From contig CANQKY010000013.1 in the NCBI GenBank assembly GCA_947624575.1, forward strand, positions 1-36,568: 36,568 nucleotides of DNA, read 5' to 3'. Made by a program: the position numbers and the translations under genes. Under the pieces are notes generated by a model. It was not told the DNA's origin and ran no database searches. It saw only the letters and a program-made list of their open reading frames with translations. Origin of the DNA: an uncultured Clostridia bacterium. GTDB taxonomy: Bacteria > Bacillota > Clostridia > Oscillospirales > Ruminococcaceae. Shown here one piece after another: positions 14,876 to 31,201 of this stretch. Within the stretch, counting starts at the first letter, position 1. Each line of letters begins with the position of its first letter.

Positions 14876-14904
14876 TTGACAATGGCAATAGAATAGGCTA
14901 TAAT
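14876..14904 (+). promoter_or_regulatory. Promoter of the transporter locus
   Basis: TTGACA (14876-14881) and TATAAT (14899-14904), both consensus, are spaced by 17 nt. This near-ideal sigma-A promoter predicts a start near 14911 and a leader of about 130 nt before the binding-protein gene. Confidence 0.88.
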
Positions 14905-14910
14905 GTAAAA

Positions 14911-15044
14911 AATGAAGTATGATGTCTTTCTGTCCCAAAACCGCCGACCGGCAGAGGTGACTGTCGGAAAAACGGGGAAATCGGCGGCTCGGACAAAAAG
15001 CGTCCTGCATTTTGACGAAAAAGTAAGTTGAGGTGACTGCTGAC
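14911..15044 (+). promoter_or_regulatory. Structured 5' leader of the transporter locus
   Basis: The leader contains an outer stem CCGCCGA/TCGGCGG (about 14941-14986) around an inner stem CGGCAG/CTGTCG. I do not recognise a known riboswitch class, and no T-run follows. It may stabilise the mRNA or serve as a control element. Confidence 0.4.
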
Positions 15045-18008
15045 ATGAAAAGAGCTTTGACGATCTTGACCTGTGTGGCGCTGACAATCAGTATGTTCGG
15101 CACATACGGGTTCGGTGTGTCTGCTGCGGAAGGAGCAGGCGGGAGCGCGGAAGCTGCTGTTTCGGAAACTGCTCCCGTTGTTGACTTGTCACAGGACGCT
15201 GAGCTGGCAGATCTGACTACATATAATGAATTTCTGGCAGCCCATGCGGACACGCCGCAGCCCGACGCGGAGATTCCGGTGGATCTTGGCACCTTTACCG
15301 GCGCGGACGGGAACCATCGGTTGATCAGTGATTATCTGGACCGACCCGGCACCAGTCTTTATACAGATGAAACGGGATACGTGGAGTTCCCGATCACTGT
15401 TGCCGAGGCCGGCTTGTATGCTGTCAAGATGGATTTTGTTGCAGAGAACAGCCGTGGCTCCGCGGTAGAGCGTGAGTTTTACATCAACGGCGAAATGCAG
15501 CACGCCGGGATGCGGCAGATCACCTTCCGCCGGATCTACGAAAATGACATCAACGACATGGATAAAAACGCCGATGGCACCTATGCCTACCGCACCGACA
15601 CCAACGGGAACGACATTCGTCCGTCCCAGGTGGAGGTCAAGCGTTGGCAGAGCGGTTATCTCCGCGATCAGCAGGGCTATATTCTCGACGCCATGCTGGT
15701 CAACCTGAACGCGGGGGTCAATACCATTCGCTTCACCGCGGTCAGTGAGCCGCTGGTCATTGGCAGCATCACCTTCTGCCATGCACCGGTCTATCCGACC
15801 TATGAGGAGCTTGCGGCACAGAACGCAAAATACGGTCCCGCCAATGCGGAGAACCTGATTATCCAGGGCGAGGACGCAGCCTATAAGTCTGATCCGGTGC
15901 TCTACCCGAGAACCGACCGGACCACCCCGACCACCCTGCCGTATGAGCGGAATCTTCAGAAGCTCAATACCGTGGGCGGTTCGAGCTGGGCAGGCGCACA
16001 GCAGTATTTGACCTGGGAGATCGAGGTTCCGGCAGACGGGCTTTATTCCATTTATGTCAAGGAGCGGCAGAACACCGCACGGGGCGTTACCTCCAGCCGT
16101 ATGATCATGATCGACGGTGAGGTGCCCTGCGCCGAGCTGCAGCATTATCAGTTCCCGTTCGATAACGACTGGCGGATTGAACCGCTCGGGAAGGACGACA
16201 CGATATTCGAGTTCTATCTCACCAAGGGCAATCACACCATCACCATGGAAGCGAGCCTTGGCGAGATGGCGACCCGCATCAGTCAGGTGCAGGATATCCT
16301 GGTCGATCTGAATAACATCTATACCACCATCATGAAGGTCACCGGCTCCGATCCGGACAGCATGCAGAACTACGCGCTGGATTCGATCCCCGAGACCAAG
16401 GCGGCGATCGACCAGCTGGGTCCGCTGTCGGTACAGCTTGAGGAGATCAAGAACTGGTTCATCGAGTACAGCGGCAAGGGCAAGAACGACGCAACGCTCA
16501 ACACCGTGATCGTACAGCTCAATAAGATGTACAATCATTACAGCGATGTGCCGAGTGAGCTGGATTACTTCAAGACCAATATCGGTAACCTCGGTACCTG
16601 GCTGACCGACGTTGCTTCCCAGCCGCTGGAGATCGACTATCTGGCGCTGGTTTCGGACGAGAGACAGATCGAGGATCTGCCGGCAGCGAAAGCGGGCTTC
16701 TTCAAGCAGCTCGGCTATGAGATCAATCAGTTCTTCGCGTCCTTCTTCAACGATTATAACAGCATCGGTTCTTCTGCCGATTCCTCGCAGGCACAGACCA
16801 CGCTGAAGGTCTGGGTGCCGACCGGTCGTGACCAGGTGCAGATCATTCGTAAGATGGTCGATACCTCCTTTATCCCGACCCACCCCTACATCGGCGTCAA
16901 CATGGAGCTGGTCGCGCAGGCGTCCCTGCTGCCGGCAACGGTCGCGGGCATCGGTCCTGACGTATCGCTCCAGCAGCCCGATACCGAGCCGGTCAACTTC
17001 GCGGTTCGTGACGCGGCGGTCGATCTCACACAGTTTGACGACTATGAGGAGATCGCTTCCCACTTCCTGGATCGCCGTATGACCCAGCTCAAATATCAGG
17101 ACGGCGTGTATGCGCTTCCTGAGACGCAGCAGTTCAACGTGCTGTTCTACCGCAGCGATGTGCTGGCGGACCTCGGCATCACCGTTCCGCAGACCTGGGA
17201 AGAGGTCATCGCCGTGATCCCGCTGCTGCTCAAGAACAACATGAGCTTTGCACTTCCGGTTTCCACCACACTGCTTCCCCAGCAGGGCGTGGACGCCTAC
17301 TATGCGATGCTGCTCCAGTCGGGCGGCGAGGTCTACCGGAACGACGGCAGATCCTCCGCTCTGGATTCGGAGATTGCACTCAGCGCCTTCAGGCAGTGGA
17401 CGAATATGTTCTTAAACTATGAGCTGCCGCAAACTTACGACTTTAAGACCCGTTTCCGCACCGGTGAGTATCCGCTGGTGGTCGCCGACTTCAGCAACTA
17501 CAACACGCTGGTTGTTTCGGCTCCTGAAATCAGCGGTCTGTGGGGCTTCACCCTGCTGCCCGGTACCAGAAAGGCGGACGGCTCGATCGACCGTTCCACT
17601 CCGATTTCCGGTGTTGACACCGTGATCATGAACGCTTCCAAGTCGCAGCAGGAGGCATGGGAGTTCGCCAAGTGGTGGACCTCCGCCGACTCGCAGTACA
17701 ACTACGGCGTGGAGCTCGAGAGCGTGATGGGTGCTTCCGCCCGTTATGCGACCGCGAATCTGGACGCGTTCAGAAAGATCCCCTGGAACGCCGAGATGTA
17801 TAATATCCTGTCTCAGCAGATGCAGTGGGGGCAGGGCATTCCGCAGGTTCCCGGATCCTACTACATGGCGCGTAATGTGAACAACGCATTCCGTCAGGTT
17901 GTTATTTCAAAGCAGGATGCGAAGGAAACGCTCTTCGATTATGTTTACACCATCAACGAGGAGCTGACCTCGAAGCGTAAAGAGTTTGGTCTCGATGTCG
18001 AAGAATAA
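15045..18008 (+). CDS. Large secreted solute-binding protein with N-terminal beta-sandwich-like modules
   Basis: A 987-aa exported protein. Residues 1-27 form a signal peptide with a VSA|A type cleavage site and no usable lipobox, unlike the three binding proteins further on. Two beta-rich segments follow, about 75-265 and 268-425; the second opens with IIQGEDAAY, similar to carbohydrate-binding module families 6/35. A helical linker covers about 420-575. The C-terminal 400 residues are a family 1 extracellular solute-binding domain (TLKVWVPTGRDQVQIIRKM, FNVLFYRSDVLADLGI, TWEEVIAVIPLLLKNN, AWEFAKWWTS). It probably captures an oligosaccharide for the following permeases. The ATG at 15045 is preferred over an in-frame GTG at 15033 because GAGGTG is correctly spaced and the signal peptide starts MKRA. 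How it is retained at the cell surface is unclear. Confidence 0.85.
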   Translation: MKRALTILTCVALTISMFGTYGFGVSAAEGAGGSAEAAVSETAPVVDLSQDAELADLTTYNEFLAAHADTPQPDAEIPVDLGTFTGADGNHRLISDYLDRPGTSLYTDETGYVEFPITVAEAGLYAVKMDFVAENSRGSAVEREFYINGEMQHAGMRQITFRRIYENDINDMDKNADGTYAYRTDTNGNDIRPSQVEVKRWQSGYLRDQQGYILDAMLVNLNAGVNTIRFTAVSEPLVIGSITFCHAPVYPTYEELAAQNAKYGPANAENLIIQGEDAAYKSDPVLYPRTDRTTPTTLPYERNLQKLNTVGGSSWAGAQQYLTWEIEVPADGLYSIYVKERQNTARGVTSSRMIMIDGEVPCAELQHYQFPFDNDWRIEPLGKDDTIFEFYLTKGNHTITMEASLGEMATRISQVQDILVDLNNIYTTIMKVTGSDPDSMQNYALDSIPETKAAIDQLGPLSVQLEEIKNWFIEYSGKGKNDATLNTVIVQLNKMYNHYSDVPSELDYFKTNIGNLGTWLTDVASQPLEIDYLALVSDERQIEDLPAAKAGFFKQLGYEINQFFASFFNDYNSIGSSADSSQAQTTLKVWVPTGRDQVQIIRKMVDTSFIPTHPYIGVNMELVAQASLLPATVAGIGPDVSLQQPDTEPVNFAVRDAAVDLTQFDDYEEIASHFLDRRMTQLKYQDGVYALPETQQFNVLFYRSDVLADLGITVPQTWEEVIAVIPLLLKNNMSFALPVSTTLLPQQGVDAYYAMLLQSGGEVYRNDGRSSALDSEIALSAFRQWTNMFLNYELPQTYDFKTRFRTGEYPLVVADFSNYNTLVVSAPEISGLWGFTLLPGTRKADGSIDRSTPISGVDTVIMNASKSQQEAWEFAKWWTSADSQYNYGVELESVMGASARYATANLDAFRKIPWNAEMYNILSQQMQWGQGIPQVPGSYYMARNVNNAFRQVVISKQDAKETLFDYVYTINEELTSKRKEFGLDVEE

Positions 18009-18011
18009 TCG

Positions 18012-18057
18012 TTCATTTTGGGTCGGGGCGGCGGCAAGCCGCCCGACCGGAAATGAA
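18012..18057 (+). other. Long intercistronic hairpin after the binding-protein gene
   Basis: TTCATTT (18012-18018) pairs with AAATGAA (18051-18057), and GGTCGGG-G-CGGC pairs with GCCGCCCGACC inside it. There is no T-run, so it is more likely an mRNA-stabilising or processing stem than a terminator. Such stems often lie between binding-protein and permease genes and raise binding-protein yield. Confidence 0.65.
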
Positions 18058-18078
18058 TAAGAGAAAGGTGGAGGCTTC

Positions 18079-19008
18079 ATGGCACAAACCCCGGATTTGT
18101 CCAGGAAAAAGGATTTCCGCTACACGATGAAGCAGATCAGAAATAACTGGAGCGCATACGCATTCCTGCTGCCGTTTGCCATTTGTTTCGTTCTGTTCAT
18201 TCTGTCGCCGGTTCTGATTTCCATTTATTTCAGTTTTACCTACTTTAACATTCTGCAGCCGGCACAGTTCGTCGGTTTCCAGAATTACATCAACCTGTTT
18301 TTGAACGACGATATCTTCTTAACCGCAATCAAGAACACCTTGATTATCGCCATCATCTGCGGTCCGCTCGGCTATCTCATGTGCTTCTTCTTCGCATGGA
18401 TGATCAACGAGTTAAAGCCCTGGCTGAGAGCGATCATGGTCGTCGTGTTCTACGCCCCGTCTCTGTCGGGTGCGGCGTACACCATCTTTACCATCATCTT
18501 CGCGGGCGACTCCTACGGCTGGCTGAACGCGAACCTGATGAACCTCGGCTTGCTGGATTCACCAATCCAATGGCTGACAGACACCAAGTATATGCTGACG
18601 GTGGTCATCATCGTGCAGTTGTGGATGTCGCTGGGCGCAGGCTTCCTGTCCTTCGTCGCAGGCTTCCAGGTGCTGGATAAATCGCACTACGAGGCTGGTT
18701 ACATAGACGGTATCCATAACCGTTGGCAGGAGCTGTGGTTCATCACACTGCCCGGTATGCGTCCGCAGCTGATGTTCGGTGCGGTCATGACCATCACCTC
18801 GACCTTCTCGGTCGGTGACATCACCGTTCAGCTTTGCGGTAACCCCTCAACCGATTACGCCGCGCACACCATTCTGAACCACCTGTCCGACTACGGTACG
18901 GTTCGTTTCGATATGGGCTATGCCTGCGGCATTGCAACGGTTCTGTTCTTAAGTATGTTCCTGCTCAATGAGCTGATTCAGCGGATCTTGAGCAAGGTCG
19001 GACGATAA
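18079..19008 (+). CDS. Sugar ABC transporter permease (UgpA/LplB-like), first pair
   Basis: A 309-aa integral membrane protein with six predicted helices; the first follows a short basic cytoplasmic N-terminus (AYAFLLPFAICFVLFILSP). The EAA loop that contacts the ATPase reads YEAGYIDGIHNRWQ..ITLPG near residues 211-234. It belongs to the CUT1 family, whose members import oligosaccharides. It forms the heterodimer with the next gene. About 22 of 27 Phe codons are TTC, against all TTT in rsmG, which suggests codon adaptation for high expression. GGTGGAGG precedes the ATG. No ATPase gene follows. Confidence 0.93.
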   Translation: MAQTPDLSRKKDFRYTMKQIRNNWSAYAFLLPFAICFVLFILSPVLISIYFSFTYFNILQPAQFVGFQNYINLFLNDDIFLTAIKNTLIIAIICGPLGYLMCFFFAWMINELKPWLRAIMVVVFYAPSLSGAAYTIFTIIFAGDSYGWLNANLMNLGLLDSPIQWLTDTKYMLTVVIIVQLWMSLGAGFLSFVAGFQVLDKSHYEAGYIDGIHNRWQELWFITLPGMRPQLMFGAVMTITSTFSVGDITVQLCGNPSTDYAAHTILNHLSDYGTVRFDMGYACGIATVLFLSMFLLNELIQRILSKVGR

Positions 19009-19022
19009 GGAGGTAGGACGCT

Positions 19023-19904
19023 ATGGCAGCAAAATCCGGAACGAAGCGCACAGCCCGTGTCGGCCTTCGTGCGACTCACTCCCTCGGCGGCGATGTCATG
19101 AATGTCTTGGTCCTGCTGTTGGTCGGCTTTATCATGGTGATCCCGCTTGTATATGTAGTCTGTAACGCATTTAAACCTCTGGACGAGATTTATAAGTACC
19201 CGCCTGACATCATCGTGCGGAACCCGACCACCGGCAACTTCAAGGACCTGGTCGTGCTCCTGTCCGATTCATGGGTGCCGTTCTCCCGTTACCTGTTCAA
19301 CACCATCTTTATTACGGTAGCAGGTATCGCCGGTCAGCTGGTATTCGCCTCGATGGCGGCGTACGTGCTGGAAAAACGGGTATTCCCCGGACGGGACGGC
19401 TTCTTTAAGCTGGTACGGACGACCCTGTTGTTCACCACCGCCGTTACTCAGATCCCGACCTTCATCATCATGACCAAGCTGGGCTGGGTGGACACCTACT
19501 GGGCGATCATCATTCCTGCGTGGGGCGGTTCGATGGGCGTTTACCTGATGAAGCAGTTCATGTCCTCGATCCCCGACTCCCTGCTGGAAGCGGCAAAGAT
19601 CGACGGTTCGAGTGAAATGCGAACCTTCTGGACCATCGTCATGCCGAACGTCAAGCCTGCATGGCTGACCCTGATTATCTTCCAGATCCAGGCGCTGTGG
19701 ACGGCAACCGGCGGCGTGTATATCTTCAGTGAGCAGAAGAAAACGCTTTCCTACGCCATGAGCCAGGTCATGCTCGGCGGTATCTCCCGTGCGGGCGCCG
19801 GCGCAGCGGTCACGCTGGTCATGCTGGTCGTACCGATTGGCGTGTTTATCCTGTCGCAGAGCCAGATCCTCCAGACGATGGCGTCCTCCGGTATGAAGGA
19901 TTGA
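19023..19904 (+). CDS. Carbohydrate ABC transporter permease (UgpE/LplC-like), first pair
   Basis: A 293-aa CUT1 permease with six predicted helices; after a basic N-terminus the first helix is VLVLLLVGFIMVIPLVYVV. The EAA loop reads LLEAAKIDGSSEMRTFWTIVMP, close to consensus. It lies 14 nt after its partner, with AAGGAGG as ribosome-binding site. The C-terminus (FILSQSQILQTMASSGMKD) is typical of the family. It forms the translocation pore with the preceding permease, with substrate presumably delivered by the 987-aa binding protein. Confidence 0.93.
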   Translation: MAAKSGTKRTARVGLRATHSLGGDVMNVLVLLLVGFIMVIPLVYVVCNAFKPLDEIYKYPPDIIVRNPTTGNFKDLVVLLSDSWVPFSRYLFNTIFITVAGIAGQLVFASMAAYVLEKRVFPGRDGFFKLVRTTLLFTTAVTQIPTFIIMTKLGWVDTYWAIIIPAWGGSMGVYLMKQFMSSIPDSLLEAAKIDGSSEMRTFWTIVMPNVKPAWLTLIIFQIQALWTATGGVYIFSEQKKTLSYAMSQVMLGGISRAGAGAAVTLVMLVVPIGVFILSQSQILQTMASSGMKD

Positions 19905-19938
19905 TGTGTGGAGAGTAATGAGAAAAAGGGGTTTGGAT

Positions 19939-22221
19939 ATGAAAGGTAAATGCAAACGCGCGCTCATTGGTCTCCTGGCAGTTGTCACTGTGGCGGCGCC
20001 GCTTACAATCAGTGCGGCCGCGGCAGTTACGCCATATGAGAGCTACCTCTACGATTCCAATGGCGACATGAACTACGCACCTCCGGGTGCTCAGCCGGAC
20101 AACGTTCTGGAGGGCCCGACCATGGGTACCGTGGCGCTCAACGGCCCGCAGGACCTGTTCGTGGACAAAACGCATGATACACTCTATATCGTAGATACCG
20201 GAAACAACCGGATCCTGAAGATGGATAATCAGTATCAGCTGATTCGGGAGTATAAGGAGTTTTCCAATCCGGACTATGATCCGAACGCGGCGGCAGTCAC
20301 TTCCTCCGCCACCACCTCGTCGGCAGCAGCTGCCGATGCGGAAGCGGCGGACGCCGAAGCGGAGGATACCGACGCCGAGAGCGGTGACAGCTCGGAAGCC
20401 ACCGAAACCGGCTCCGGCGGCACCTCCGCCGAGGTTCCGACCACGACCGCTTCCACCACCGTGATCGACGCGGGCATGGATTCCTTCGCGGCGCCTACCG
20501 GCGTGTGGGTTGATCCGGTCACCGAGGATATCCTGATTGCGGATACCGGCCATCAGCGGCTGGTACGGCTGGATCGGGACAGCAATCTGGTCGCCATCTA
20601 TAAGGCTCCGGTCTCCAACCTGCTGCCGGGCGACTTCAACTACCAGCCCATCAAGGTGGCGTGCGACTCCGCAGGACGGATCTTCGTCTGCTCCCGCGGC
20701 TTCAACCGCGGCTTGCTGGAGCTGGACGCAAACGGCAACTTCGTTCAGATGCTGGGCGCTCCGAAGCCGGTCTACACACTGGCGGAGTCGATTCAGTACC
20801 TGCTCAGCACCGAGGAGCAGAGAGCCCGTCGTGAGTCCTTCGTCCCCTCCGAGTACAATAACCTCATGGTGGACGATGAAGGCTTCATCTATGTGACGAC
20901 CAACAGTAACGTAAAAGAGCCGGTTCGTCGGGTCAACGCAAAGGGGAACGACGTGCTTCGCCGCACCTCCGGCAAAGGACCGGTGGCAGACCTCATCGAG
21001 AACACCTTATCGAGCATCAAGGGCTCCTCGCTGGTCAACGATGTGACCACCCTGACAAACGGCATGTACGCCATTCTGGATCAGCGCCGCGGTCGTGTAT
21101 TCGTCTATAATATCGACGGCGGTATGCAGTTCATGTTCGGCGGTCTCGGCAATACAAGAGGTACCGTGACCACCCCGACCTCGCTGGTCTACTTCAATGA
21201 CGAGTTCCTGGTGCTGGACGGCTCCAAGAACGCGATTCTCACCTTCCAGTTGACCGAGTACGGCAGCCTCTTCTTCGAGGCTGAGAACTGCAAGGCAAAC
21301 AACGATTACGAGGGTGAGGCAGCCGCGTGGGCAGCACTTCTCGATTACAACCAGGAGAACGCGATGGTGCTCCGTGAGCTGGGCAACGTGGCTTACCGTC
21401 AGCGTGAGATGAAGGACGCGATGGATTACTTCGATCTCGCGTGGGATAAGGACAACTACTCCAAGGCGTGGAAGTTCTATCGCCGCGACGTCCTCAACGA
21501 GCACTTCATGGTGGTCGGCATTGTGGCGGTGGTTCTGGTGCTGGCACTCTTTGCCTACATCATCTTCCAGGCGACCTACCGGAAGAAGCACCCCAAGCCG
21601 GAGAAGAAGAAAGGACCGCTTGCTTACTGTACTTATGTATCTGGACGAATGCTCGACGGTTACTGGGATCTGAAGCGTGAGAACCGAGGCTCGGTCAAGG
21701 CGGCGTTTATCCTGATCGGACTGACGATGCTGATGATGATCCTCAAGTCGCAGTTCACCGGCTTCATCTTCCAGAGCGTCCGCCCGATCTACGCAAACAT
21801 CTTCAACGACATATTCCGAATCGCGCTTCCGTTCGTACTCTGGATCGTGGCGCAGTGGTGTATCACCTCGCTGATGGCAGGTGAAGGCTCCTTCAAGGAC
21901 ATCTTCATCGCCACCGCATACGCGCTCACCCCGCTTATTATTCTGACTCCGATCGCGACCATTCTCAGTAATGTGCTTTCTCAGGACGAGGGTGCGATTT
22001 ACACCGCACTGATTGCGATCTCCTACATCTGGCTGGTGCTGATGCTGATCGCCAGCGTGATGCAGACGCACAACTTCACATTGGGACAGACGATCGGCGT
22101 AATACTCCTTACCCTGCTGGCAATCGCGATTATCGTTTTCGTGGCGCTGCTCTGCCTGGCACTGGTACAGCAGATGATCGCATTCGTAACCGATATCGTC
22201 GAAGAGCTGGCGAACCGATAA
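19939..22221 (+). CDS. Exported NHL-repeat beta-propeller fused to a Yip1-type membrane domain
   Basis: About 760 aa. A signal peptide (about 1-31) is followed by NHL-type propeller repeats: residues 67-100 (GPQDLFVDKTHDTLYIVDTG) and from 186 (APTGVWVDPVTEDILIADTG), with more degenerate blades to about 445. An Ala/Glu/Asp/Ser/Thr-rich linker (about 115-180) interrupts the propeller. A TPR-like helical stretch covers about 450-515, a membrane helix about 523-546, and a C-terminal Yip1-like domain with several helices about 567-760. The propeller is predicted outside the cell. The ATG at 19939 has AAAAGGGG 8 nt upstream and starts a clean signal peptide; 19906 (GTG) and 19918 (ATG) are in-frame alternatives. 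The function is unknown; a sensor or scaffold for the co-encoded importers is a guess. Confidence 0.8.
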   Translation: MKGKCKRALIGLLAVVTVAAPLTISAAAAVTPYESYLYDSNGDMNYAPPGAQPDNVLEGPTMGTVALNGPQDLFVDKTHDTLYIVDTGNNRILKMDNQYQLIREYKEFSNPDYDPNAAAVTSSATTSSAAAADAEAADAEAEDTDAESGDSSEATETGSGGTSAEVPTTTASTTVIDAGMDSFAAPTGVWVDPVTEDILIADTGHQRLVRLDRDSNLVAIYKAPVSNLLPGDFNYQPIKVACDSAGRIFVCSRGFNRGLLELDANGNFVQMLGAPKPVYTLAESIQYLLSTEEQRARRESFVPSEYNNLMVDDEGFIYVTTNSNVKEPVRRVNAKGNDVLRRTSGKGPVADLIENTLSSIKGSSLVNDVTTLTNGMYAILDQRRGRVFVYNIDGGMQFMFGGLGNTRGTVTTPTSLVYFNDEFLVLDGSKNAILTFQLTEYGSLFFEAENCKANNDYEGEAAAWAALLDYNQENAMVLRELGNVAYRQREMKDAMDYFDLAWDKDNYSKAWKFYRRDVLNEHFMVVGIVAVVLVLALFAYIIFQATYRKKHPKPEKKKGPLAYCTYVSGRMLDGYWDLKRENRGSVKAAFILIGLTMLMMILKSQFTGFIFQSVRPIYANIFNDIFRIALPFVLWIVAQWCITSLMAGEGSFKDIFIATAYALTPLIILTPIATILSNVLSQDEGAIYTALIAISYIWLVLMLIASVMQTHNFTLGQTIGVILLTLLAIAIIVFVALLCLALVQQMIAFVTDIVEELANR

Positions 22222-22247
22222 TTTGAAAGGGAATAGGTGGTGATAGA

Positions 22248-24749
22248 ATGAAGCGAATGAAGCGATTGATCAGCGGTGCATTGGCGCTCATCATGGTTGC
22301 CGCAGTTTGCACATCTTGTGCAGATGACGAAGCGATTCTGTCGGTATCCGAAGAAAACGCCATTCTTCAGGTGCAGGCGGCAGACGCATATACACCTTCC
22401 GATCCGAATTATCAGCTGATGGTGGAAAATGATGATCTGGCGCTCTATGTCAACCAGGCGACCACACAGTTCCAGGTGATGGATAAAGCCAACGGCGCGG
22501 TGTATTACTCCAATCCAGAGGGGGACGAAAAGTCCAAGACGGACGTGGAAAACTCGCTGTTCGACCTTTCCTATCTGGACGGTTCCAATCAGACCGGTAC
22601 TCTCAACAGCTACGCTGACTCTGTCAAGAAGGGTCAGTTCGCGATCTCCAAGATCGACGACGGCGTGAAGATTCAGTTCACCGTCGGTGTTGCAGAACCG
22701 TTCTACTACTGTCCGTACGGCATCAGCGCCGAGCGGTTCGAGGCGATTCGGGAAAAGATCACCGATACCTTTGACCGGTCACAGCTGGTTGCAAACTACA
22801 AAAAGAGCGGCGACCTCTATGTTCTGTCGAGCGAGACACTCTCGCTTCGTACCAAGGCGACGATTGACCGGATCTTAAAGAGCACCGGTTACAACGACGA
22901 GGATTTCGAGATCGACCAGCGCAACGGTGAGACTGCTGCCACGACCGGCGTCTGCTTCAACATTTTCCTCTATCTGAAGCTGGACGGCGACCGTCTGGTG
23001 GTCGACATTCCGATGAGTGAGATCAGCGAGTTCAACGGCGCGGTGGTGACCGAGCTGCGGCTCCTGACCAACTTCGCGGCTCCCGATCCGGACGATGCAG
23101 GCAGCTACTTCCTGCTTCCGGACGGCGCGGGTTCGATTATGAACACCTACAACGGCAAGGGGCTGACGCAGGATTATCGGGTGCCGGTTTACGGCCGTGA
23201 TAGCTCCAACCCGCCTGATGAGCAGATCTTCCAGGAGGAGCCGGCGTACCTGCCGGTATTCGGGATCGGCTATACCGATAAGGCGGTGTTCGCCACCATC
23301 ACCGATGGCGCGGCGATCGCGGAGGTCATGGCAAGAACCGGAAACGATCAACAGCACTCCGGTGTTTACACCATGTTCCGCACCAGTGAAACGGCGAGGA
23401 CCTACCTCGGCTCCACCGGCGGAAACGAGTACTTCACCATATCGCAGGAGCATCATTACGAGGGCAGCCTGCAGGTGACCTACAAGTTCTTTGAGGCGGA
23501 CGCCTGCCAGGTTTCGGATATGGCGGCATACTACCGCAGCCAGCTGTTCGGCTCCGATGCGGTCGATGCGGACCAGCCGCCGATCTACATTGAGTTCCTC
23601 GGTACCATTCGTCGGCAGAACAATATCCTCGGTATCGAGATGACAAAGCCGAATGCGTACTCCACGCTGCAGGACGTCATGACGGTGGGGAACGAGCTGC
23701 TCGACGCCGGCGGAAAGAATCTGGTGTTCAAGCTGACCGGCTTCTTCAACAACGGCGTGGATACGACCTCCGCTTTGAAGCTGAAGCTGAACAAGGAGGT
23801 CGGCGACAAGCAGGATCTGCAGGATCTGCTCAACTGGGCAAGCGAGAAGGGCGTCAAGCTCTACTTCGATGTCGATCCCCAGTATGTTTACAATACGGCG
23901 TTCTTAGACGGCTTCTCCACAACGAAGGACACCTCTTACCTGCTGACCAAGACGGTGGCGCATCGCGTGAAATACTTCCCGGTTGACTTCACCGCATGGT
24001 CTTCTAACGATGACAGCTACCTTGTGAACACGCCTTATATCATGAATCCTGCCGCTGTGCGGGAGGCGATCGGAAATATCAAGGCAACGTTCAGCGATCT
24101 TGGGATCGGCGGCGTGTCCCTGCGGAGTGTCGGAAGCGGAGTCAGCAGCGATTACAAGAAGGAGCGTATGATCGAGCGGCAGGAGGCAACCAATATGCTG
24201 GTAGAGGACCTTGCTTCTCTCAGCGATTTCAGCCTGCTGACCTTCGGAGCAAACGCATATGCGCTTCCCTATATGGATCATGCGATCTCCATTCCGCTCA
24301 ACTCCTCCAAGTATGACAACACCGATGCGACCATTCCGTTCCTCCAGATGGTATTGCAGGGGAATGTGGCGTTCGCAGACGAAAGCGTCAACTTGAACGG
24401 AAATACCAAGACAGCGGTTCTGGACGCAGTCCGCAGCAACGCCGGTTTCTACTATGTGCTGACGACCAGCGAAGATTCGGATATGTCCAAGACACAGCAT
24501 ATCGACTACTTCTCCACCAGCTACAAGACCTGGAAGGAAGATATTCTGGAGAAGATCGATATTCTGAACAAGGACGGCAACGTACTCGCAAGCGGGATCA
24601 CCAATTATGAGACCCTTGCAAATAATGTATACCGGACTACAGCTCAGGACGGAAGCTACATCGTCTCGAACTATTCTACGGCAGAGTACACCTATGAGGG
24701 CACGACGATTGCCCCCGGTGCGTATCTGACAGGAAAGGTAGGTGCATAA
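22248..24749 (+). CDS. DUF5696-type surface lipoprotein, likely TIM-barrel hydrolase-like
   Basis: An 833-aa exported protein with a lipoprotein-type signal ending VCTSC (residue at -3 is Cys, atypical). The region from about 270 onward matches my recollection of DUF5696 proteins: YFLLPDGAGSIMN, then FGIGYTDKAVFATITDGAAIAEV, then a probable barrel beginning PPIYIEFLGTI with GGVSLRSVGSGVSSDY near residue 620. The layout resembles distant glycoside hydrolases, but I cannot name catalytic residues. It lies between two permease pairs, and the same family neighbours sugar importers in other Firmicutes (from memory). A role in trimming or docking the glycan before import is inferred. Confidence 0.75.
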   Translation: MKRMKRLISGALALIMVAAVCTSCADDEAILSVSEENAILQVQAADAYTPSDPNYQLMVENDDLALYVNQATTQFQVMDKANGAVYYSNPEGDEKSKTDVENSLFDLSYLDGSNQTGTLNSYADSVKKGQFAISKIDDGVKIQFTVGVAEPFYYCPYGISAERFEAIREKITDTFDRSQLVANYKKSGDLYVLSSETLSLRTKATIDRILKSTGYNDEDFEIDQRNGETAATTGVCFNIFLYLKLDGDRLVVDIPMSEISEFNGAVVTELRLLTNFAAPDPDDAGSYFLLPDGAGSIMNTYNGKGLTQDYRVPVYGRDSSNPPDEQIFQEEPAYLPVFGIGYTDKAVFATITDGAAIAEVMARTGNDQQHSGVYTMFRTSETARTYLGSTGGNEYFTISQEHHYEGSLQVTYKFFEADACQVSDMAAYYRSQLFGSDAVDADQPPIYIEFLGTIRRQNNILGIEMTKPNAYSTLQDVMTVGNELLDAGGKNLVFKLTGFFNNGVDTTSALKLKLNKEVGDKQDLQDLLNWASEKGVKLYFDVDPQYVYNTAFLDGFSTTKDTSYLLTKTVAHRVKYFPVDFTAWSSNDDSYLVNTPYIMNPAAVREAIGNIKATFSDLGIGGVSLRSVGSGVSSDYKKERMIERQEATNMLVEDLASLSDFSLLTFGANAYALPYMDHAISIPLNSSKYDNTDATIPFLQMVLQGNVAFADESVNLNGNTKTAVLDAVRSNAGFYYVLTTSEDSDMSKTQHIDYFSTSYKTWKEDILEKIDILNKDGNVLASGITNYETLANNVYRTTAQDGSYIVSNYSTAEYTYEGTTIAPGAYLTGKVGA

Positions 24750-24752
24750 CGA

Positions 24753-25679
24753 ATGGCTGAAGCTGTGGCTGTAAAGGCAAAACCCAAAAAGAAAGTGAAA
24801 TCCTGGGAGCAGAAGAAAAAGACAATCGGTTATGTATTCACAACACCGTTTATCATCGGCGCGTTCTTCTTCCTCCTGCTGCCGGTCATCACCTCGCTGA
24901 TCTATTCGTTCAGCAATCTGAACATCAGCGCGTCCGGCTATATTCTGGAGAATGTGGGGTTTGAGCATTACCGGTATCTGTTCACGATAGATCCGGACTT
25001 CCTCGGAAATATCGGCGCGATGCTGCTTGACACCATGCCGAACGTCATCGTGGCTTTGATCTTCAGCTTCTTCATTGCGAGCTTGCTGAATCAAAAATTC
25101 CACGGGCGTGCGCTGGTACGCGGAATCTTCTTCATGCCGGTCATTCTCTCCTCCGGTATCTACACCCAGCTGCAAACCGGAGATACGCTGTCCAATATGT
25201 ACAGCAGCGCACAGTCGACCAGCGATGCAGGCTCAGTAACGGCGGCATTCACCACAACGCTTGCCAACATGGGCTTAAGCGAAGGTATCTCGAAGTTCCT
25301 GGTTGACTCAGTGGGTCGTATTTCCTCGATCGTGGCGATGAGCGCGATCCCGATCATCATTTTCTTAGCAGGCTTCCAGAGCATTTCGCCCTCCATTTTC
25401 GAAGCGTCCTATATCGAGGGCGCTACCAAGTGGGAGGTTTTCTGGAAGATCAGCTTCCCGATGGTCAGCCCGCAGATCTTAGTATCGCTGGTCTACATCA
25501 TCATCGACTCGTTCACGACCTCTACCAATGCGATGATCCAGAATATCCACACGGTCACATTCAACAACCTGAATTACGGGCGAGGTGCCGCAATGGCGTG
25601 GGTCTATATGCTGGTGATATTCATTATCATCGGGATATGCTTCTTCATAGTCAACCGTCTGGTATTCTACTACGATTAA
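24753..25679 (+). CDS. Sugar ABC transporter permease, second pair (UgpA/LplB-like)
   Basis: A 308-aa CUT1 permease starting 3 nt after the previous stop. A Lys-rich cytoplasmic N-terminus (about 30 residues) precedes the first helix, TTPFIIGAFFFLLLPVITSL. The EAA loop is FEASYIEGATKWEVFWKISFP. An extracellular Ser/Thr-rich loop (about 145-185) lies between helices 3 and 4. It is clearly divergent from the first-pair permease at 18079, so the locus encodes two distinct importers rather than a recent duplication. It pairs with the next gene. Confidence 0.93.
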   Translation: MAEAVAVKAKPKKKVKSWEQKKKTIGYVFTTPFIIGAFFFLLLPVITSLIYSFSNLNISASGYILENVGFEHYRYLFTIDPDFLGNIGAMLLDTMPNVIVALIFSFFIASLLNQKFHGRALVRGIFFMPVILSSGIYTQLQTGDTLSNMYSSAQSTSDAGSVTAAFTTTLANMGLSEGISKFLVDSVGRISSIVAMSAIPIIIFLAGFQSISPSIFEASYIEGATKWEVFWKISFPMVSPQILVSLVYIIIDSFTTSTNAMIQNIHTVTFNNLNYGRGAAMAWVYMLVIFIIIGICFFIVNRLVFYYD

Positions 25680-25697
25680 GGAAGGGGGAACCGGTTT

Positions 25698-26666
25698 ATG
25701 GAAATTTCGTATAAGACTAAAAAGCGTATTGCCAAATACACCGTGTCTACCGGTAACTGGTTGCTCCGCACGGTACTGTTCATCGGTATCAGCTTCGTGA
25801 TCCTTTATCCGGTGGTCTCGAAAATCCTGGTTTCCTTCATGACCGTGGAGGACGTGTACGACGCTTCGGTGCAGTACATTCCGAAGAACTGGACGCTCAG
25901 AAACTATCAGAACGCATGGGACTTCTTAGAGATGAACAGCCTGCTGCTCAACAGCTTTTTGTATCCGCTGATCACCTCCTTCGTCCAGATGTGTTCCGCA
26001 ACACTGGTTGCGTACGGCTTTGCACGGTATAACTTCCGCGGGAAGAACTTCCTGTTCGTGCTGGTCGTTGTGGCGATGGTGATCCCGCCCGACCTGACCC
26101 TGCTGCCGCTCTACATGGGATTCCGTTATTTCGATATCGGCATCAGCGTGGGCGCATTCCGGTTTGGGCTGCTCCAGTTGATCACAGGCAAATCACTGAA
26201 TGTGCTGAACACGGTTGTACCGTATGTTCTGCTCGGCATCACCTGTACGGGCTTGAAGAACGGGCTTTACATCTTCCTGATGCGGCAGTACTTCCGCGGC
26301 CTGCCGAAGGAGCTGGAGGAAGCCTCCTATGTGGACGGCGCTTCCACGGCGCAGGCTTTCATCAAGGTGTTCCTCCCCTCTGCCACTCAGATCATGATTA
26401 CAGTGTTCCTGTTCTCCTATGTGTGGCAGTGGCTGGACGACATTTACTCATCTGTGTTCCTGCAACAGGTTCCGGTTCTGGCAACCGCGCTGACCCGACT
26501 GCTGGAGAACGCCAGCACGGTAAGCGCCGGCATCAGTAATCTGACCGAGGTCAGCCTGGTACGAAACTGCGCCATGCTCTTCCTCATCATACCGATGCTG
26601 GTTCTCTACCTGATTTGCCAGAGATATTTCACCGAAAGTGTGGAGCGTTCCGGTCTGGTTGGATAA
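25698..26666 (+). CDS. Carbohydrate ABC transporter permease, second pair (UgpE/LplC-like)
   Basis: A 322-aa CUT1 permease, somewhat longer than its 293-aa counterpart at 19023. The first helix is LLRTVLFIGISFVILYPVVS. The EAA loop is LEEASYVDGASTAQAFIKVFLP near residues 210-232. The region between helices 3 and 4 is extended (YFDIGISVGAFRFGLLQL). It lies 18 nt after its partner, with GGAAGGGGG upstream. The three tandem binding proteins that follow are its likely substrate suppliers. No ATPase gene is found nearby. Confidence 0.93.
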   Translation: MEISYKTKKRIAKYTVSTGNWLLRTVLFIGISFVILYPVVSKILVSFMTVEDVYDASVQYIPKNWTLRNYQNAWDFLEMNSLLLNSFLYPLITSFVQMCSATLVAYGFARYNFRGKNFLFVLVVVAMVIPPDLTLLPLYMGFRYFDIGISVGAFRFGLLQLITGKSLNVLNTVVPYVLLGITCTGLKNGLYIFLMRQYFRGLPKELEEASYVDGASTAQAFIKVFLPSATQIMITVFLFSYVWQWLDDIYSSVFLQQVPVLATALTRLLENASTVSAGISNLTEVSLVRNCAMLFLIIPMLVLYLICQRYFTESVERSGLVG

Positions 26667-26708
26667 TCGGCGGAACGGCGCATACACTGAATAAAAGGAG
26701 GTCATTTA

Positions 26709-28124
26709 ATGATGAAATGGAAACGCGTCATCGCGGCGATCCTCTCAGCTATGATGGTCACCGCTGTGTTCGCCGGCTGCGGTCCCGGCGATGAAGGCGG
26801 CGGCACAGGCGGAGCAGTCGGCACGGACGATCTGGACTTCAAAGGTGAAACCATCACCTTTGCCTATCCGCCGGGCTACGACATGGTCTACACCGAGGAT
26901 ACCGACGACCCCTATTTGATCTATCAGCGCGAGCGCATGGACGAACTGGAGCAGCGCTTCAACTGCAAGATCGAGCAGATCGAGGGTAAAGGTCAGTACT
27001 GGACCCAGATGGCAACAACAGTTGCGGCAGGTTCTCCGCTTGGCCACATCATGGTCACCCAGGAAAACTATATTCTGGACTGGTTTAAGCGTGGCGCTAT
27101 CGCCAACCTTGCCGACGCCATGGCAGAAACAGGGATCGACTTTACCGACAGCCGGTACAGCCAGACTGTGCGGAAGATGACCCGTTTTGACGGCGGACAG
27201 TATGCGTTCTGCGATGTGCCGCTGAATCCGACCGGTGCACTGTGGTTTGCAAACCTCTCCCTGTTTGAGAGAGATCAGCTCGGTGACATCTATGAGATGA
27301 TCGAGAACAAGGAGTGGACCTGGGATAAGTGCGAGGAGATCGCAACCAAGGCAACCAAGACCGATGCCACCGGTACCACCACCCAATGGGGTATCAGAGC
27401 GTATCAGCACTGGGCATTCCTGCTTTCGCTGGCAGTCAGCAATGGCGGAAGTATCGCGAGCTTTGACTCGGAAGGTAACCCGACCCTGCCGCTGAGTGAG
27501 CCGGCAGCGACCCAGGCGTTCCAGAAGTTCTATGACTGGGGCGTTATCAAGAAGATCGCCAATATCAACGACGGCAGTCAGAACTGGGATCAGCCGCTGC
27601 AAGAGTTCACCGAGGGCAACATCGCCCTGCTGGTTGCAGGCAACAAGCTGCTCCAGATCGCGCAGGAGAACGCGATGGAAGATCAGATCGGCGTGATCTA
27701 TCCGCCGATGGGTCCGGAGATGGACGATTATGCCATCAACTCCCAGTGCGGTCAGATGTACTTCATTCCGACCACCTATCAGGATATGGCTTCCGAGCTG
27801 CTGCTGCTGGTCAACGAGCTGTATGCTCCCTATGAGGATATGACCCATGAGGATATGATCATGGCGAAGTATTCCAAGCGGATCGACAACGAGGATTCGA
27901 TGCGGATCTACATTGATCTGGCGACCAATGCGGATCGGTATGCTTACGATGCTGTGCAGCTGACCAAGCTCGACTGGACGTCGCCTTCGGTGCATGAGAT
28001 GTGCGCGAAGGTGCTGCACGGTGACCAGACGCCGGGTGACGCGATCGCGGCGAACACCCAGCAGTTCCTCGCCACCATGTCCGACATGATGGAAGGTCAC
28101 ACACTGAAGATGAACGAACCCTAA
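26709..28124 (+). CDS. Extracellular solute-binding lipoprotein, paralog 1 of 3
   Basis: A 471-aa family 1 solute-binding protein. The signal peptide ends in a lipobox-like VFAGC (Cys at about 23), so it should be lipid-anchored next to the second permease pair. Hallmarks include DELEQRFNCKIEQIEGKGQY near residue 75, GQYWTQMATTVAAG, TRFDGGQYAFCDVPLNPTG and ENKEWTWDKCEEIATKA. Ends in GHTLKMNEP, shared by all three paralogs. AAAGGAGG lies 7 nt before the first of two tandem ATGs (26709; 26712 is an alternative). The gene is followed by a strong hairpin terminator that may set its expression apart from paralog 2. Confidence 0.92.
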   Translation: MMKWKRVIAAILSAMMVTAVFAGCGPGDEGGGTGGAVGTDDLDFKGETITFAYPPGYDMVYTEDTDDPYLIYQRERMDELEQRFNCKIEQIEGKGQYWTQMATTVAAGSPLGHIMVTQENYILDWFKRGAIANLADAMAETGIDFTDSRYSQTVRKMTRFDGGQYAFCDVPLNPTGALWFANLSLFERDQLGDIYEMIENKEWTWDKCEEIATKATKTDATGTTTQWGIRAYQHWAFLLSLAVSNGGSIASFDSEGNPTLPLSEPAATQAFQKFYDWGVIKKIANINDGSQNWDQPLQEFTEGNIALLVAGNKLLQIAQENAMEDQIGVIYPPMGPEMDDYAINSQCGQMYFIPTTYQDMASELLLLVNELYAPYEDMTHEDMIMAKYSKRIDNEDSMRIYIDLATNADRYAYDAVQLTKLDWTSPSVHEMCAKVLHGDQTPGDAIAANTQQFLATMSDMMEGHTLKMNEP

Positions 28125-28141
28125 ATAGCACCATATCAAAA

Positions 28142-28186
28142 ATAAAAATGGGGGGGCATCTCAATCAGATGCCCCTCCATTTTTAT
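28142..28186 (+). terminator. Strong terminator after binding protein 1
   Basis: A 20-bp stem with a single G-U pair: the left arm 28142-28161 pairs with 28167-28186 around a 5-nt CAATC loop. The 3' arm ends in TTTTTAT. It probably ends the main transporter transcript and leaves paralogs 2 and 3 to readthrough or their own promoters. The core GGGGCATCT/AGATGCCCC recurs in the terminator after paralog 3. Confidence 0.85.
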
Positions 28187-28268
28187 ATTGGCGGCGTGCC
28201 GGTATGCTGCCAAACGCGCAAACAGACCCTAAGCGTTTCAATCATCAGACAAAAAGGAGGTTTCCTCA

Positions 28269-29669
28269 ATGAAGACAAACCTGAAACGGTTTCTGGCGGC
28301 TGTCCTTTCCGCCTTGACGGTCACGGCACTTCTTGCCGGTTGCGGCGGCGGGGAGGAAGCGGCAGTCAGCACAAATGATTTGGATTTTGGGGGTGAAACC
28401 ATCACCTTTGCCTATCCGTCCGAATTTAGCATGGCATACACCGAGGGTACAAACGACCCCTATCTGATCCATCAGCGTCAGCGCATGGACGAGCTGGAAC
28501 AGCGGTTCAACTGCAAGATCGCGCAGGTCGAGGGGAAGGGTCAGTACTGGACCCAAATGACAGCTTCGATCGCGGCTGGCACGCCGCTCGGTCATGTGAT
28601 GGTGACGAAGGAAGGCTATCTTCTCGACTGGTTCAAGGCGGGCGCGATCGCCAACCTTGCCGACGCTATGGCACAGACCGGCATCGACTTTACCGACAGC
28701 CGGTACAGCCAGACCGTGCGGAAGATGACCCGCTTCGACGGCGGACAGTATGCGTTTAGCGATCTGCCGTCAAGCCCGACCGGTGCGCTGTGGTATGCCA
28801 ATCTCTCCCTGTTCGAGCGGGAACAGCTCGGCAACATCTATGAGCTGATCGAGAATAAGGAGTGGACCTGGGACAAGTGCGAGAAAATCGCTGCTAAGGC
28901 GACCAAGACCGATGCGTCGGGCAACACCACCCAGTGGGGCATCAGAGCGTCACAGGGCACCCAGCTCCTGCTTTCGCTGGCGGTCAGCAATGGCGGAAGC
29001 ATCGCCGGCTTTGATGCGGAGGGAAAGCCCACCCTGCCGTTGAGCGAACCGGCGGCGACCGAAGCGTTTCGGAAGTTCTATGACTGGGGCATCGTCAAGA
29101 AGATCGCCGATATCGGTGACGGCAGCACCAGCTGGGATCCGGCGCCGCTCGCATTTACCGAGGGGAATATCGCCATGCTGGTTTCGGACAATGCTCTGTT
29201 CCAAACAGCACAAGACCATGCCATGGCAGATCAGATCGGCGTGATCTACCCGCCGATCGGTCCTCAGATGGACGATTATGCCACCTCGGCAAGCTGCGGG
29301 CAGATGTACTTTATTCCGGTGACCTATCAGGATATGGCTCCCAAGCTGCTGCCCTTGGTCAACGAGCTGTTTGCCCCCGATGAGGAGCTGATGGAAAAAG
29401 AGGTGGTTTACAAATATCCGCGGCTGAACGACAGTGCGGATTCGCTTCGCGTTTATCTGGACATTCTCACCAATTCGCAGCGGCATTTCAGTGACGCCAC
29501 GCAGCTATTGAAGGTCGACTGGGTGTCGCCTACGGTGCATGAGATGTGCGCGAAGGTGCTCAGTGGCGAGCAGACGCCGGACGAGGCGATCGCGGCAAAC
29601 ACCCCGCAGTTCCTCGCCACCATGTCCGACACGATGGAGGACCACACCCTGAAAATGAACGAACCCTAA
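28269..29669 (+). CDS. Extracellular solute-binding lipoprotein, paralog 2 of 3
   Basis: A 466-aa family 1 solute-binding protein with a perfect lipobox LLAGC. It shares long identical blocks with paralog 1 (FTDSRYSQTVRKMTRFDGGQ, ENKEWTWDKCE), but differs in parts likely to face ligand: SEFSMAYTEGTN at the start of the mature domain, SDLPSSPTG in place of CDVPLNPTG, and a different segment around 365-400 (EELMEKEVVYKYPRLNDSAD). AAAAAGGAGG lies upstream of the ATG. Gap 28187-28268 holds no clear promoter, although its sequence resembles the region before paralog 3 (GGTATGCT(G/A)CCA). A different or overlapping sugar specificity is an inference. Confidence 0.92.
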   Translation: MKTNLKRFLAAVLSALTVTALLAGCGGGEEAAVSTNDLDFGGETITFAYPSEFSMAYTEGTNDPYLIHQRQRMDELEQRFNCKIAQVEGKGQYWTQMTASIAAGTPLGHVMVTKEGYLLDWFKAGAIANLADAMAQTGIDFTDSRYSQTVRKMTRFDGGQYAFSDLPSSPTGALWYANLSLFEREQLGNIYELIENKEWTWDKCEKIAAKATKTDASGNTTQWGIRASQGTQLLLSLAVSNGGSIAGFDAEGKPTLPLSEPAATEAFRKFYDWGIVKKIADIGDGSTSWDPAPLAFTEGNIAMLVSDNALFQTAQDHAMADQIGVIYPPIGPQMDDYATSASCGQMYFIPVTYQDMAPKLLPLVNELFAPDEELMEKEVVYKYPRLNDSADSLRVYLDILTNSQRHFSDATQLLKVDWVSPTVHEMCAKVLSGEQTPDEAIAANTPQFLATMSDTMEDHTLKMNEP

Positions 29670-29681
29670 GCGCCAGTGTGA

Positions 29682-29710
29682 TTGACTTATCGCGGCGGGT
29701 ATGCTACCAT
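29682..29710 (+). promoter_or_regulatory. Candidate promoter and hairpin before paralog 3
   Basis: TTGACT (29682-29687), 17 nt, TACCAT (29705-29710) preceded by TG at -15/-14, so an extended -10. GTATGCTA...TAGCATAC (29700-29726) forms an inverted repeat over the -10 and start region, so it could also be an operator. The -10 matches only four of six consensus bases. Confidence 0.45.
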
Positions 29711-29742
29711 AATGGTATAGCATACAAAGGGGAGGTTGTCTC

Positions 29743-31143
29743 ATGAGCGGGAACCCGAAACGGTTGACAGCGGCTGTCCTTTCCGCCCTGACGGTCACGG
29801 CACTTCTTGCCGGCTGCGGCGGGGAGAAAGCGGCAGTCGGTACAGAGGATTTGGATTTTGGCGGCGAGACCATCACCTTCACCTATCCGCCGGGCTACGA
29901 CATGGTCTACACCGAGGATACCGACGACCCCTACCTGATCTATCAGCGTCAGCGTATGGACGAGCTGGAGCAGCGGTTCAACTGCAAGATTGAGCAGGTC
30001 GAGGGAAAGGGTCAGTACTGGACCGGTATGGCGACCTCGATTGCGGCAGGCTCACCGATGGGTCATGTGATGGTCACACAGGAAAACTATATTCTCGACT
30101 GGTTCAAGGCGGGCGCGATCGCCAACCTTGCCGACGCGATGGCGGAAACGGGGATCGACTTTACCGACAGCCGGTACAGCCAGGTCGTGCGGAAGATGAC
30201 CCGCTTCGACGGCGGACAGTATGCGTTTTGCGATGTACCGCTGAACCCGACCGGCGCATTGTGGTATGCAAACCTCTCCCTGTTCGAGCGGGAACAGCTC
30301 GGCGACATCTATGAGCTGATCGAAAATAAGGAGTGGACCTGGGATAAGTGCGAGGAAATCGCGACCAAAGCGACCAAGACCGATGCGTCCGGCACCACCA
30401 CCCAATGGGGGCTGGTGGGCTCGCAGGGGCACGCCTTCTTCCGTGCGCTTGCCAATTCCAACGGCGGCAGCGTGGCGGGCTATGACGATGAGGGGAATCC
30501 CGCTTTGCTGCTGACCGATCCGGCGTCGGGAGAGGCGCTCGAAAAGATGTATGACTGGGCGGTGATCAAGAAGATCGCCAATGTCAATGACGGCAGCCTG
30601 AACTGGGATCAGCCGCTGCATGAGTTTACAAAGGGCAGTATCGCCATTCTCTGCGGGGCGAACAAGCTGCTCCAGATCGCGCAGGAATCGGCAATGGAGG
30701 ATCAGATCGGCGTGATCTACCCGCCGATCGGTCCCCAGATGAACGATTATGCCACCTCGGCAAGCTGTGGGCAGATGTACTTTATTCCGGCGACCTATCA
30801 GGATATGACCACCAAGCTGTTATTGCTGGTCAACGAGCTGTACGCTCCCTATGAGAATATGACCCACGCGGACATGATCATGGCGAAGTATTCCAAGCGG
30901 ATCGACAACGAGAAGTCGATGCAGGTCTATATCGACATCTCCGAGAATGCAGATCGGTATATGCTCGACGCCGTGACGCTGGCGGGGCTGGATTGGAACT
31001 CGCCGTCTATCACCAGTATGTGCGGCGAGGTGCTGCGCGGCGAACAGACGCCCGGCGACGCGATCGAGAAGAATAAATCGCAGTTTCTGGCAAGGCTTCA
31101 GGACGAGATGGCAGGTCACACCCTGAAGATGAACGAACCCTAA
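29743..31143 (+). CDS. Extracellular solute-binding lipoprotein, paralog 3 of 3
   Basis: A 466-aa family 1 solute-binding protein with a perfect lipobox LLAGC and a signal peptide nearly identical to paralog 2. The sequence is a mosaic: the first 200 mature residues (PPGYDMVYTEDTDDPYLIYQ, CDVPLNPTG) follow paralog 1; ATSASCGQMYFIP follows paralog 2; and a block of about 50 residues, from GLVGSQGHAFFRALANSNGG to TDPASGEALEKMYDWAV, fits neither. That block lies where the C-lobe of the sugar pocket should be. The last part (DMIMAKYSKRIDNEKSM) again follows paralog 1. GGGGAGG precedes the ATG. A 16-bp terminator follows. Confidence 0.92.
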   Translation: MSGNPKRLTAAVLSALTVTALLAGCGGEKAAVGTEDLDFGGETITFTYPPGYDMVYTEDTDDPYLIYQRQRMDELEQRFNCKIEQVEGKGQYWTGMATSIAAGSPMGHVMVTQENYILDWFKAGAIANLADAMAETGIDFTDSRYSQVVRKMTRFDGGQYAFCDVPLNPTGALWYANLSLFEREQLGDIYELIENKEWTWDKCEEIATKATKTDASGTTTQWGLVGSQGHAFFRALANSNGGSVAGYDDEGNPALLLTDPASGEALEKMYDWAVIKKIANVNDGSLNWDQPLHEFTKGSIAILCGANKLLQIAQESAMEDQIGVIYPPIGPQMNDYATSASCGQMYFIPATYQDMTTKLLLLVNELYAPYENMTHADMIMAKYSKRIDNEKSMQVYIDISENADRYMLDAVTLAGLDWNSPSITSMCGEVLRGEQTPGDAIEKNKSQFLARLQDEMAGHTLKMNEP

Positions 31144-31158
31144 GCGTGATTTTGTGTG

Positions 31159-31201
31159 AAAGTACGGGGCATCTTTAAGATGCCCCGTACTTTATGTTTT
31201 T
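31159..31201 (+). terminator. Terminator after binding protein 3
   Basis: A 16-bp perfect stem: AAAGTACGGGGCATCT (31159-31174) pairs with AGATGCCCCGTACTTT (31178-31193) around a TTA loop, followed by ATGTTTTT. It ends the transport locus. Confidence 0.88.

Follow-up and report, generated by a model that had tools for sequence, protein, structure and literature searches.

Gene content and organization of the locus

Ten ORFs separated by small spacers run along the + strand at 15045-31143 of the window, i.e., the whole stretch of 36,568 nucleotides analyzed here, which is one entire contig from a draft genome of 2.4 Mb. They occur in the order SBPbig, P1a, P1b, NHL-TPR-Yip1, DUF5696, P2a, P2b and three small lipoprotein solute-binding proteins (SBPs). 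The earlier note had placed genes at these positions with short gaps between them, and all ten were indeed recovered there with the backing of Pfam. Upstream of the block, a promoter-like site (TTGACA-17-TATAAT; 14876..14904, + strand) agrees with the consensus at 12/12 positions; promoter-like sites in the block region are no more numerous than in shuffled sequence, and this one is identified by its consensus match alone.

The first gene, SBPbig (15045..18008; an alternative GTG start is possible at 15033), encodes a 991-aa protein with two beta-sandwich (CBM35-like) domains, a helical bundle and a C-terminal family-1 SBP domain. It is followed by the CUT1-type permeases P1a (18079..19008) and P1b (19023..19904), the 771-aa NHL-TPR-Yip1 protein (19906..22221), DUF5696 (22248..24749), a membrane-anchored GH129-like protein which, as judged by Pfam, fold and alignment, is devoid of the GH129 catalytic residues, and a second set of CUT1-type permeases, P2a (24753..25679) and P2b (25698..26666). 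The block concludes with small SBP 1 (26709..28124; SBP_bac_8, lipobox FAGC), SBP 2 (28269..29669; Pfam SBP, 72% identity to SBP 1) and SBP 3 (29743..31143; Pfam SBP, 77% identity to SBP 1).

The block is flanked by three likely cargo enzymes recognized with Pfam: a divergent sulfatase with a C-I-P-A-R motif on the opposite strand (13162..14604), retained in the sister genome L095, and, on the + strand, a GH2 enzyme (31835..34030) and a GH29 alpha-L-fucosidase (34043..36055). None of the three has a hydrophobic N-terminal segment, and such a lack of signal peptides is as expected if oligosaccharides are imported intact.

Permeases, solute-binding proteins and a single orphan ATPase

All four permeases possess the BPD_transp_1 domain (Pfam), with P2a scoring 24.4 against a cut-off of 26.4 when searched alone and above the cut-off in the genome search. 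The EAA loop is found in 45/45 homologs of P1a and 43/43 of P1b, and can likewise be read in the sequences of P2a and P2b. With just 25-27% identity between the two pairs, their earlier description as non-redundant holds. That description had also noted the absence of a dedicated ATPase and called for a search for an MsmX-like enzyme: we found no ATPase gene within the block and a single orphan elsewhere, namely the sole OB_MalK ATPase of the genome, which adjoins a PucR-like regulator and ftsEX and is MsmX-like. Binding-protein-dependent permease genes of any kind number 15 in this genome.

The permease pair with its EAA loops, the family-1 SBP and the MalK/MsmX-type ATPase of a CUT1 ABC sugar importer are thus all accounted for, and the block belongs with these importers, not in a new category. 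It resembles those CUT1 importers that share MsmX or MsmK in having type I sugar permease pairs with EAA loops, family-1 SBPs and an orphan common ATPase. In contrast to them, it has two permease pairs along with two constant accessory proteins, and one of its SBPs bears large N-terminal beta-sandwich domains.

Pfam SBP_bac_1/8 domains are present in SBPbig and in the three lipoproteins of ~466 aa. In SBPbig, SBP_bac_1 covers residues 633-888; in the AF2 model of the protein (pLDDT 84.7), the SBP domain matches Lin1841 (5ysb) with a Z of 36.7. Residues 313-408 show a profile match (E 1e-7) to 5x7g, the matched part of which we take to be a CBM35 domain. A fold search with the N-terminal half returned a list swamped by matches to the SBP domain; hence, the fold proposed for this half relies on secondary structure and the weak profile match. 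The three lipoprotein SBPs were rightly called as such at the outset, with the correction that they are tandem paralogs, 70-77% identical to each other. A search of PDB sequences with a small SBP yielded no relative. At the equivalent place, locus L066 has about five small SBPs as against the three seen here, indicating that this section expands easily.

A very stable hairpin of 20 pairs occupies the spacer between SBP 1 and SBP 2 (28142..28186, + strand; -32 kcal/mol, z -8.5), and a terminator-like hairpin with a 16-pair stem closes the block (31159..31193, + strand; z -7.2). The two have a common core, GGGGCATCT...AGATGCCCC, suggesting that an SBP was duplicated together with its hairpin. 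The spacer hairpin might act as an attenuator or mRNA stabilizer, with SBP 1 possibly made in excess owing to it.

Conservation of gene order and phyletic spread

The order SBPbig-P1a-P1b-NHL/Yip1-DUF5696-P2a-P2b extends across the phylum. We compiled two sets of loci: one anchored on DUF5696 matches from the phylum and from close relatives (L061-L120 plus the window), and the other on SBPbig matches from named genomes (L121-L200), including Paenibacillus, Cohnella, relatives of Bacillus, Lachnospiraceae, Halanaerobiales and Treponema. In the first set, NHL-Yip1 directly precedes DUF5696 in 57/57 loci, P2a-P2b directly follow it in 59/60, and SBPbig-P1a-P1b lie immediately upstream of NHL-Yip1 in 40/51; in the second, the full set is present in 68 of the 69 named loci for which >9 kb of downstream sequence is available. 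Median spacers between adjacent block genes range from -17 to +16 bp. The same order with tight gaps is seen in more than 100 loci, an arrangement far beyond chance, and the fixed linkage that had been suspected from the window is borne out by these adjacencies. In a few loci (L111, L112 and L167) the two halves of the block are rotated. In the Caldicellulosiruptor-like locus L079 (3362-6221), P1b is interrupted by a transposase-like ORF of 442 aa on the opposite strand, the remaining block being intact. Four ATPase-like ORFs close to named loci were judged to lie outside the block. On a plasmid of Paenibacillus cellulosilyticus (L212, 12533-30556), one ugpC ATPase gene lies immediately 5' of the whole block.

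At the genome level, 26 of 299 Bacillota genomes contain a strong DUF5696 match, and NHL-Yip1 and SBPbig are both present in all 26 (with truncation at the edge of a contig in G103), so that NHL-Yip1 and DUF5696 prove to be the constant partners they had been taken for. Outside these 26, a fragment of NHL-Yip1 turned up in one genome, and SBPbig close to the ends of contigs in three. The marker-gene co-occurrence over the 299 genomes has Fisher p values of about 1e-36 and 2e-34. Across 102 loci, the distance matrices of the seven block proteins correlate at 0.87-0.95, values that in part reflect the shared species phylogeny. The largest partial correlation links NHL-Yip1 with DUF5696 (0.54), followed by P1a-P1b (0.49), SBPbig-P1b (0.44) and P2a-P2b (0.43), a pattern consistent with P1 and P2 forming a unit each and the accessories a pair.

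Some families have extra NHL-Yip1/DUF5696/P2 blocks without SBPbig-P1 nearby. In the multi-copy genome G062, about ten DUF5696 blocks accompany about four copies of SBPbig, which rules out one-to-one copy parity between the two; hence, P1 need not be matched one-to-one, and one P1 may serve several P2 blocks. Overall, the block spans hundreds of bacterial species; it occurs in about 9% of the sampled Bacillota species and in at least 570 genome stretches, often in multiple copies per genome, as well as in Treponema. The latter is a diderm (loci L177 and L183), and the range of the block thus extends beyond the Gram-positives. The viral contigs searched contain no relative of the block.

The NHL-Yip1 and DUF5696 proteins

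Pfam detects NHL, TPR-like and Yip1 domains in the 771-aa protein. Its assignment to the Yip1 family is clear, with a score of 45.6 bits against a cut-off of 28.6 and five hydrophobic segments. Its hydropathy profile reveals a signal/anchor, the propeller followed by its TPR tail, a single TM segment, a basic stretch and the five Yip1 TM segments, from which the propeller and TPR tail are predicted to be external and the basic stretch cytoplasmic. In some genomes NHL and Yip1 are encoded by a single gene, whereas in many relatives they are two adjacent genes, which accounts for the unusual fusion in the window.

DUF5696 is recovered by Pfam with an E-value of 6.5e-131, and its AlphaFold model is confident (pLDDT 85). 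The closest solved structures are the GH129 enzyme NagBb (5wzn) and the GH129-like DagB (5opq), with Z ~27 over 550-570 residues, followed by a cluster at Z ~18-19 with GH101 among its members. Sequence profiles point the same way (E 1e-10 to DagB and 1e-7 to NagBb), as does an hhalign comparison with GH129 relatives (probability 99.2). The latter were the weak DUF5696 hits L055-L057, one of which was checked against NagBb. These loci, from genomes belonging to the same order as the window, encode enzymes of the GH129 type that are separate from DUF5696 and retain their catalytic motifs. The overall fold is, thus, that of GH129, with the same beta-sandwich, TIM barrel and C-terminal Ig-like domain. 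A scan of 199 genomes with the Pfam GH129 model (PF11308) returned zero matches; the control was equally silent, so this count shows nothing.

This fold raises the alternative that DUF5696 is a working GH129-like surface glycosidase, trimming a terminal sugar before import, with NHL-Yip1 merely anchoring it. The likeness to GH129/GH101 spans its entire length, and the homolog in Anaerocellum bescii is annotated as GH129. The active site tells against it. In NagBb numbering, the nucleophile is D435 in 'AYLDVF', and E478 in 'SSEE' is what we take to be the acid/base residue. D435 is the catalytic residue common to NagBb and DagB (PMC5698469). The corresponding strand in the window copy reads 'GVSLRSVG', with R626 and S627 in place of the Asp, and the acid/base position is occupied by F666. 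Neither column is conserved in the family: the nucleophile column has Asp in 5 of 129 homologs, and the acid/base position has Asp or Glu in 43%. The next residue after the nucleophile column (627) is Asp in 74/129 (~57%), and catalytic residues can move within GH families, as noted for DagB (PMC5698469), so some DUF5696 members could still be active. The DUF5696/GH129 alignment is gapped and imperfect around the catalytic stretch; hence, we limit the claim to the GH129 catalytic signature not being a feature of the family and being absent from the window copy. Further, DUF5696 is constant while the enzymes encoded at its loci differ widely. Weighing these points, we consider an active glycosidase unlikely, the most credible among the alternatives, and DUF5696 appears more likely to be a glycan binder than an enzyme. 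The earlier suggestion that it acts on a glycan becomes doubtful in view of the lost catalytic positions.

Unlike GH129, DUF5696 is also membrane-anchored and importer-linked. A hydrophobic N-terminal segment is present in 59 of 61 homologs and a lipobox-like motif in 13; the window copy has an atypical VCTSC. Of its initial description as a lipoprotein, the membrane anchor stands and the lipobox is doubtful, making 'membrane-anchored' the safer term. Position 729 is Glu in 91% of the homologs and Arg in the window copy.

Relationship to the xylan-induced operon of Anaerocellum bescii

It had been thought that such neighborhoods lacked an assigned function. However, the same block heads a known operon of A. 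bescii (Caldicellulosiruptor), xloEFG-X-GH129-axoFGE-xynF-..., for which xylan and cellulose are inducers and XynR and AraR the regulators (PMC8579813). The XynR operator was located ahead of Athe_0174 (PMC12285236), and the published 20-mer has an exact match at L117:1706-1725, 150 bp upstream of the start of the SBPbig homolog. The genes downstream of the block in L117 (an SBP and a GH43 with CBM6) also agree with the published operon. Therefore, the xylan degradation locus begins with this block, 'X' corresponding to NHL-Yip1 and 'GH129' to DUF5696; the published annotation leaves the former just as 'X' and takes the latter for an enzyme. Our literature search for DUF5696 or Yip1 together with importers found nothing useful.

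The window shares with this operon the order SBPbig-P1-NHL/Yip1-DUF5696-P2-SBP with homologous proteins, the absence of an ATPase gene and a presumably shared ATPase of the MsmK type. In A. bescii, deletion of MsmK, which serves the oligosaccharide transporters, leads to poorer growth on oligo- and polysaccharides (PMC8579813). The flanks differ: xylanases and GH43 in A. bescii as against only the sulfatase, GH2 and GH29 fucosidase in the window, where we see no xylan-active enzymes. The window also has three small SBPs, unlike the A. bescii operon.

A proposed mechanism of oligosaccharide uptake

We favor, with moderate confidence, the interpretation that the block is one oligosaccharide-uptake machine, in which two ABC pores draw on a common ATPase, two accessories are obligate and specificity is set per locus. 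Briefly, P1 would pair with the CBM-bearing SBPbig, and P2 with the small, readily duplicated lipoprotein SBPs, both CUT1-type importers being powered by the cell's lone MsmX-like ATPase. NHL-TPR-Yip1 would be a scaffold embedded in the membrane with an extracellular propeller, and DUF5696 a membrane-anchored GH129 derivative that has lost catalysis and probably binds glycan ends. Accessories and importers together would keep glycan chains on the outside of the cell and presumably pass fragments to the SBPs and permeases, perhaps with the accessories docking on the permeases as a physical complex. Specificity would come from the SBPs and adjacent enzymes, being directed to xylan in A. bescii and to GH26-type mannan, GH43 or GH10 substrates elsewhere.

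A rival to such a joint machine is that these are two independent importers for related oligosaccharides that are just co-transcribed, with the accessories serving one of them or envelope upkeep. The published annotation does treat XloEFG and AxoFGE as two transporters, with predicted substrates (PMC8579813). The low identity between the permease pairs and the ability of the NHL-Yip1/DUF5696/P2 part to stand without P1 nearby are in keeping with this. Yet the joint order is near-invariant over many families, the components co-occur in 26/26 genomes, and SBPbig is present in every DUF5696 genome of the sample; we accordingly regard independence as rather improbable. A glycan sensor formed by NHL-Yip1 and DUF5696, gating the importers or signaling to them or to a nearby regulator, appears very improbable: NHL propellers are often ligand- or protein-binding modules, and LacI or AraC with His kinase regulators are common beside the block, but our domain search found no signaling domain in either protein, and the adjoining regulators vary between loci.

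Within the framework of a single uptake machine, we tentatively raise a stronger and less probable version, in which the block encodes an ABC glycan importer with two pores, and both NHL-Yip1 and the degenerate GH129 protein belong to its structure as genuine subunits; such a complex would take up large oligosaccharides and be the Gram-positive equivalent of the Sus systems. In the SusCD systems of Bacteroidota, surface capture feeds a transporter; the parallel would be one of logic only since the block has neither a TonB receptor nor SusD and is ABC-driven. If this version were true, Yip1 proteins would acquire a role in bacterial nutrient import. Should NHL-Yip1 and DUF5696, the constant proteins of a widespread block, be importer parts, the textbook CUT1 importers would have a widespread elaborated form, and the GH129 label would be misleading for a gene of the biofuel model organism A. 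bescii. Because A. bescii lends itself to genetic work and carries an operon with an established response to xylan, their roles are directly testable.

Local specificity and the probable substrate of the window locus

The enzymes encoded near block loci include GH42, GH26, GH95, GH31, GH3, GH43, GH5 and GH10, a variety that rules out a single substrate. Thus, the block is better seen as a general chassis with local specificity. In the window, the presence of genes for a sulfatase, a fucosidase and a GH2 enzyme makes a sulfated, fucosylated oligosaccharide, degraded inside the cell, the probable substrate. In the P. cellulosilyticus locus, LLM-class flavin oxidoreductases are encoded between the SBP genes at the end of the block, a hint that the substrate there is a non-standard one.
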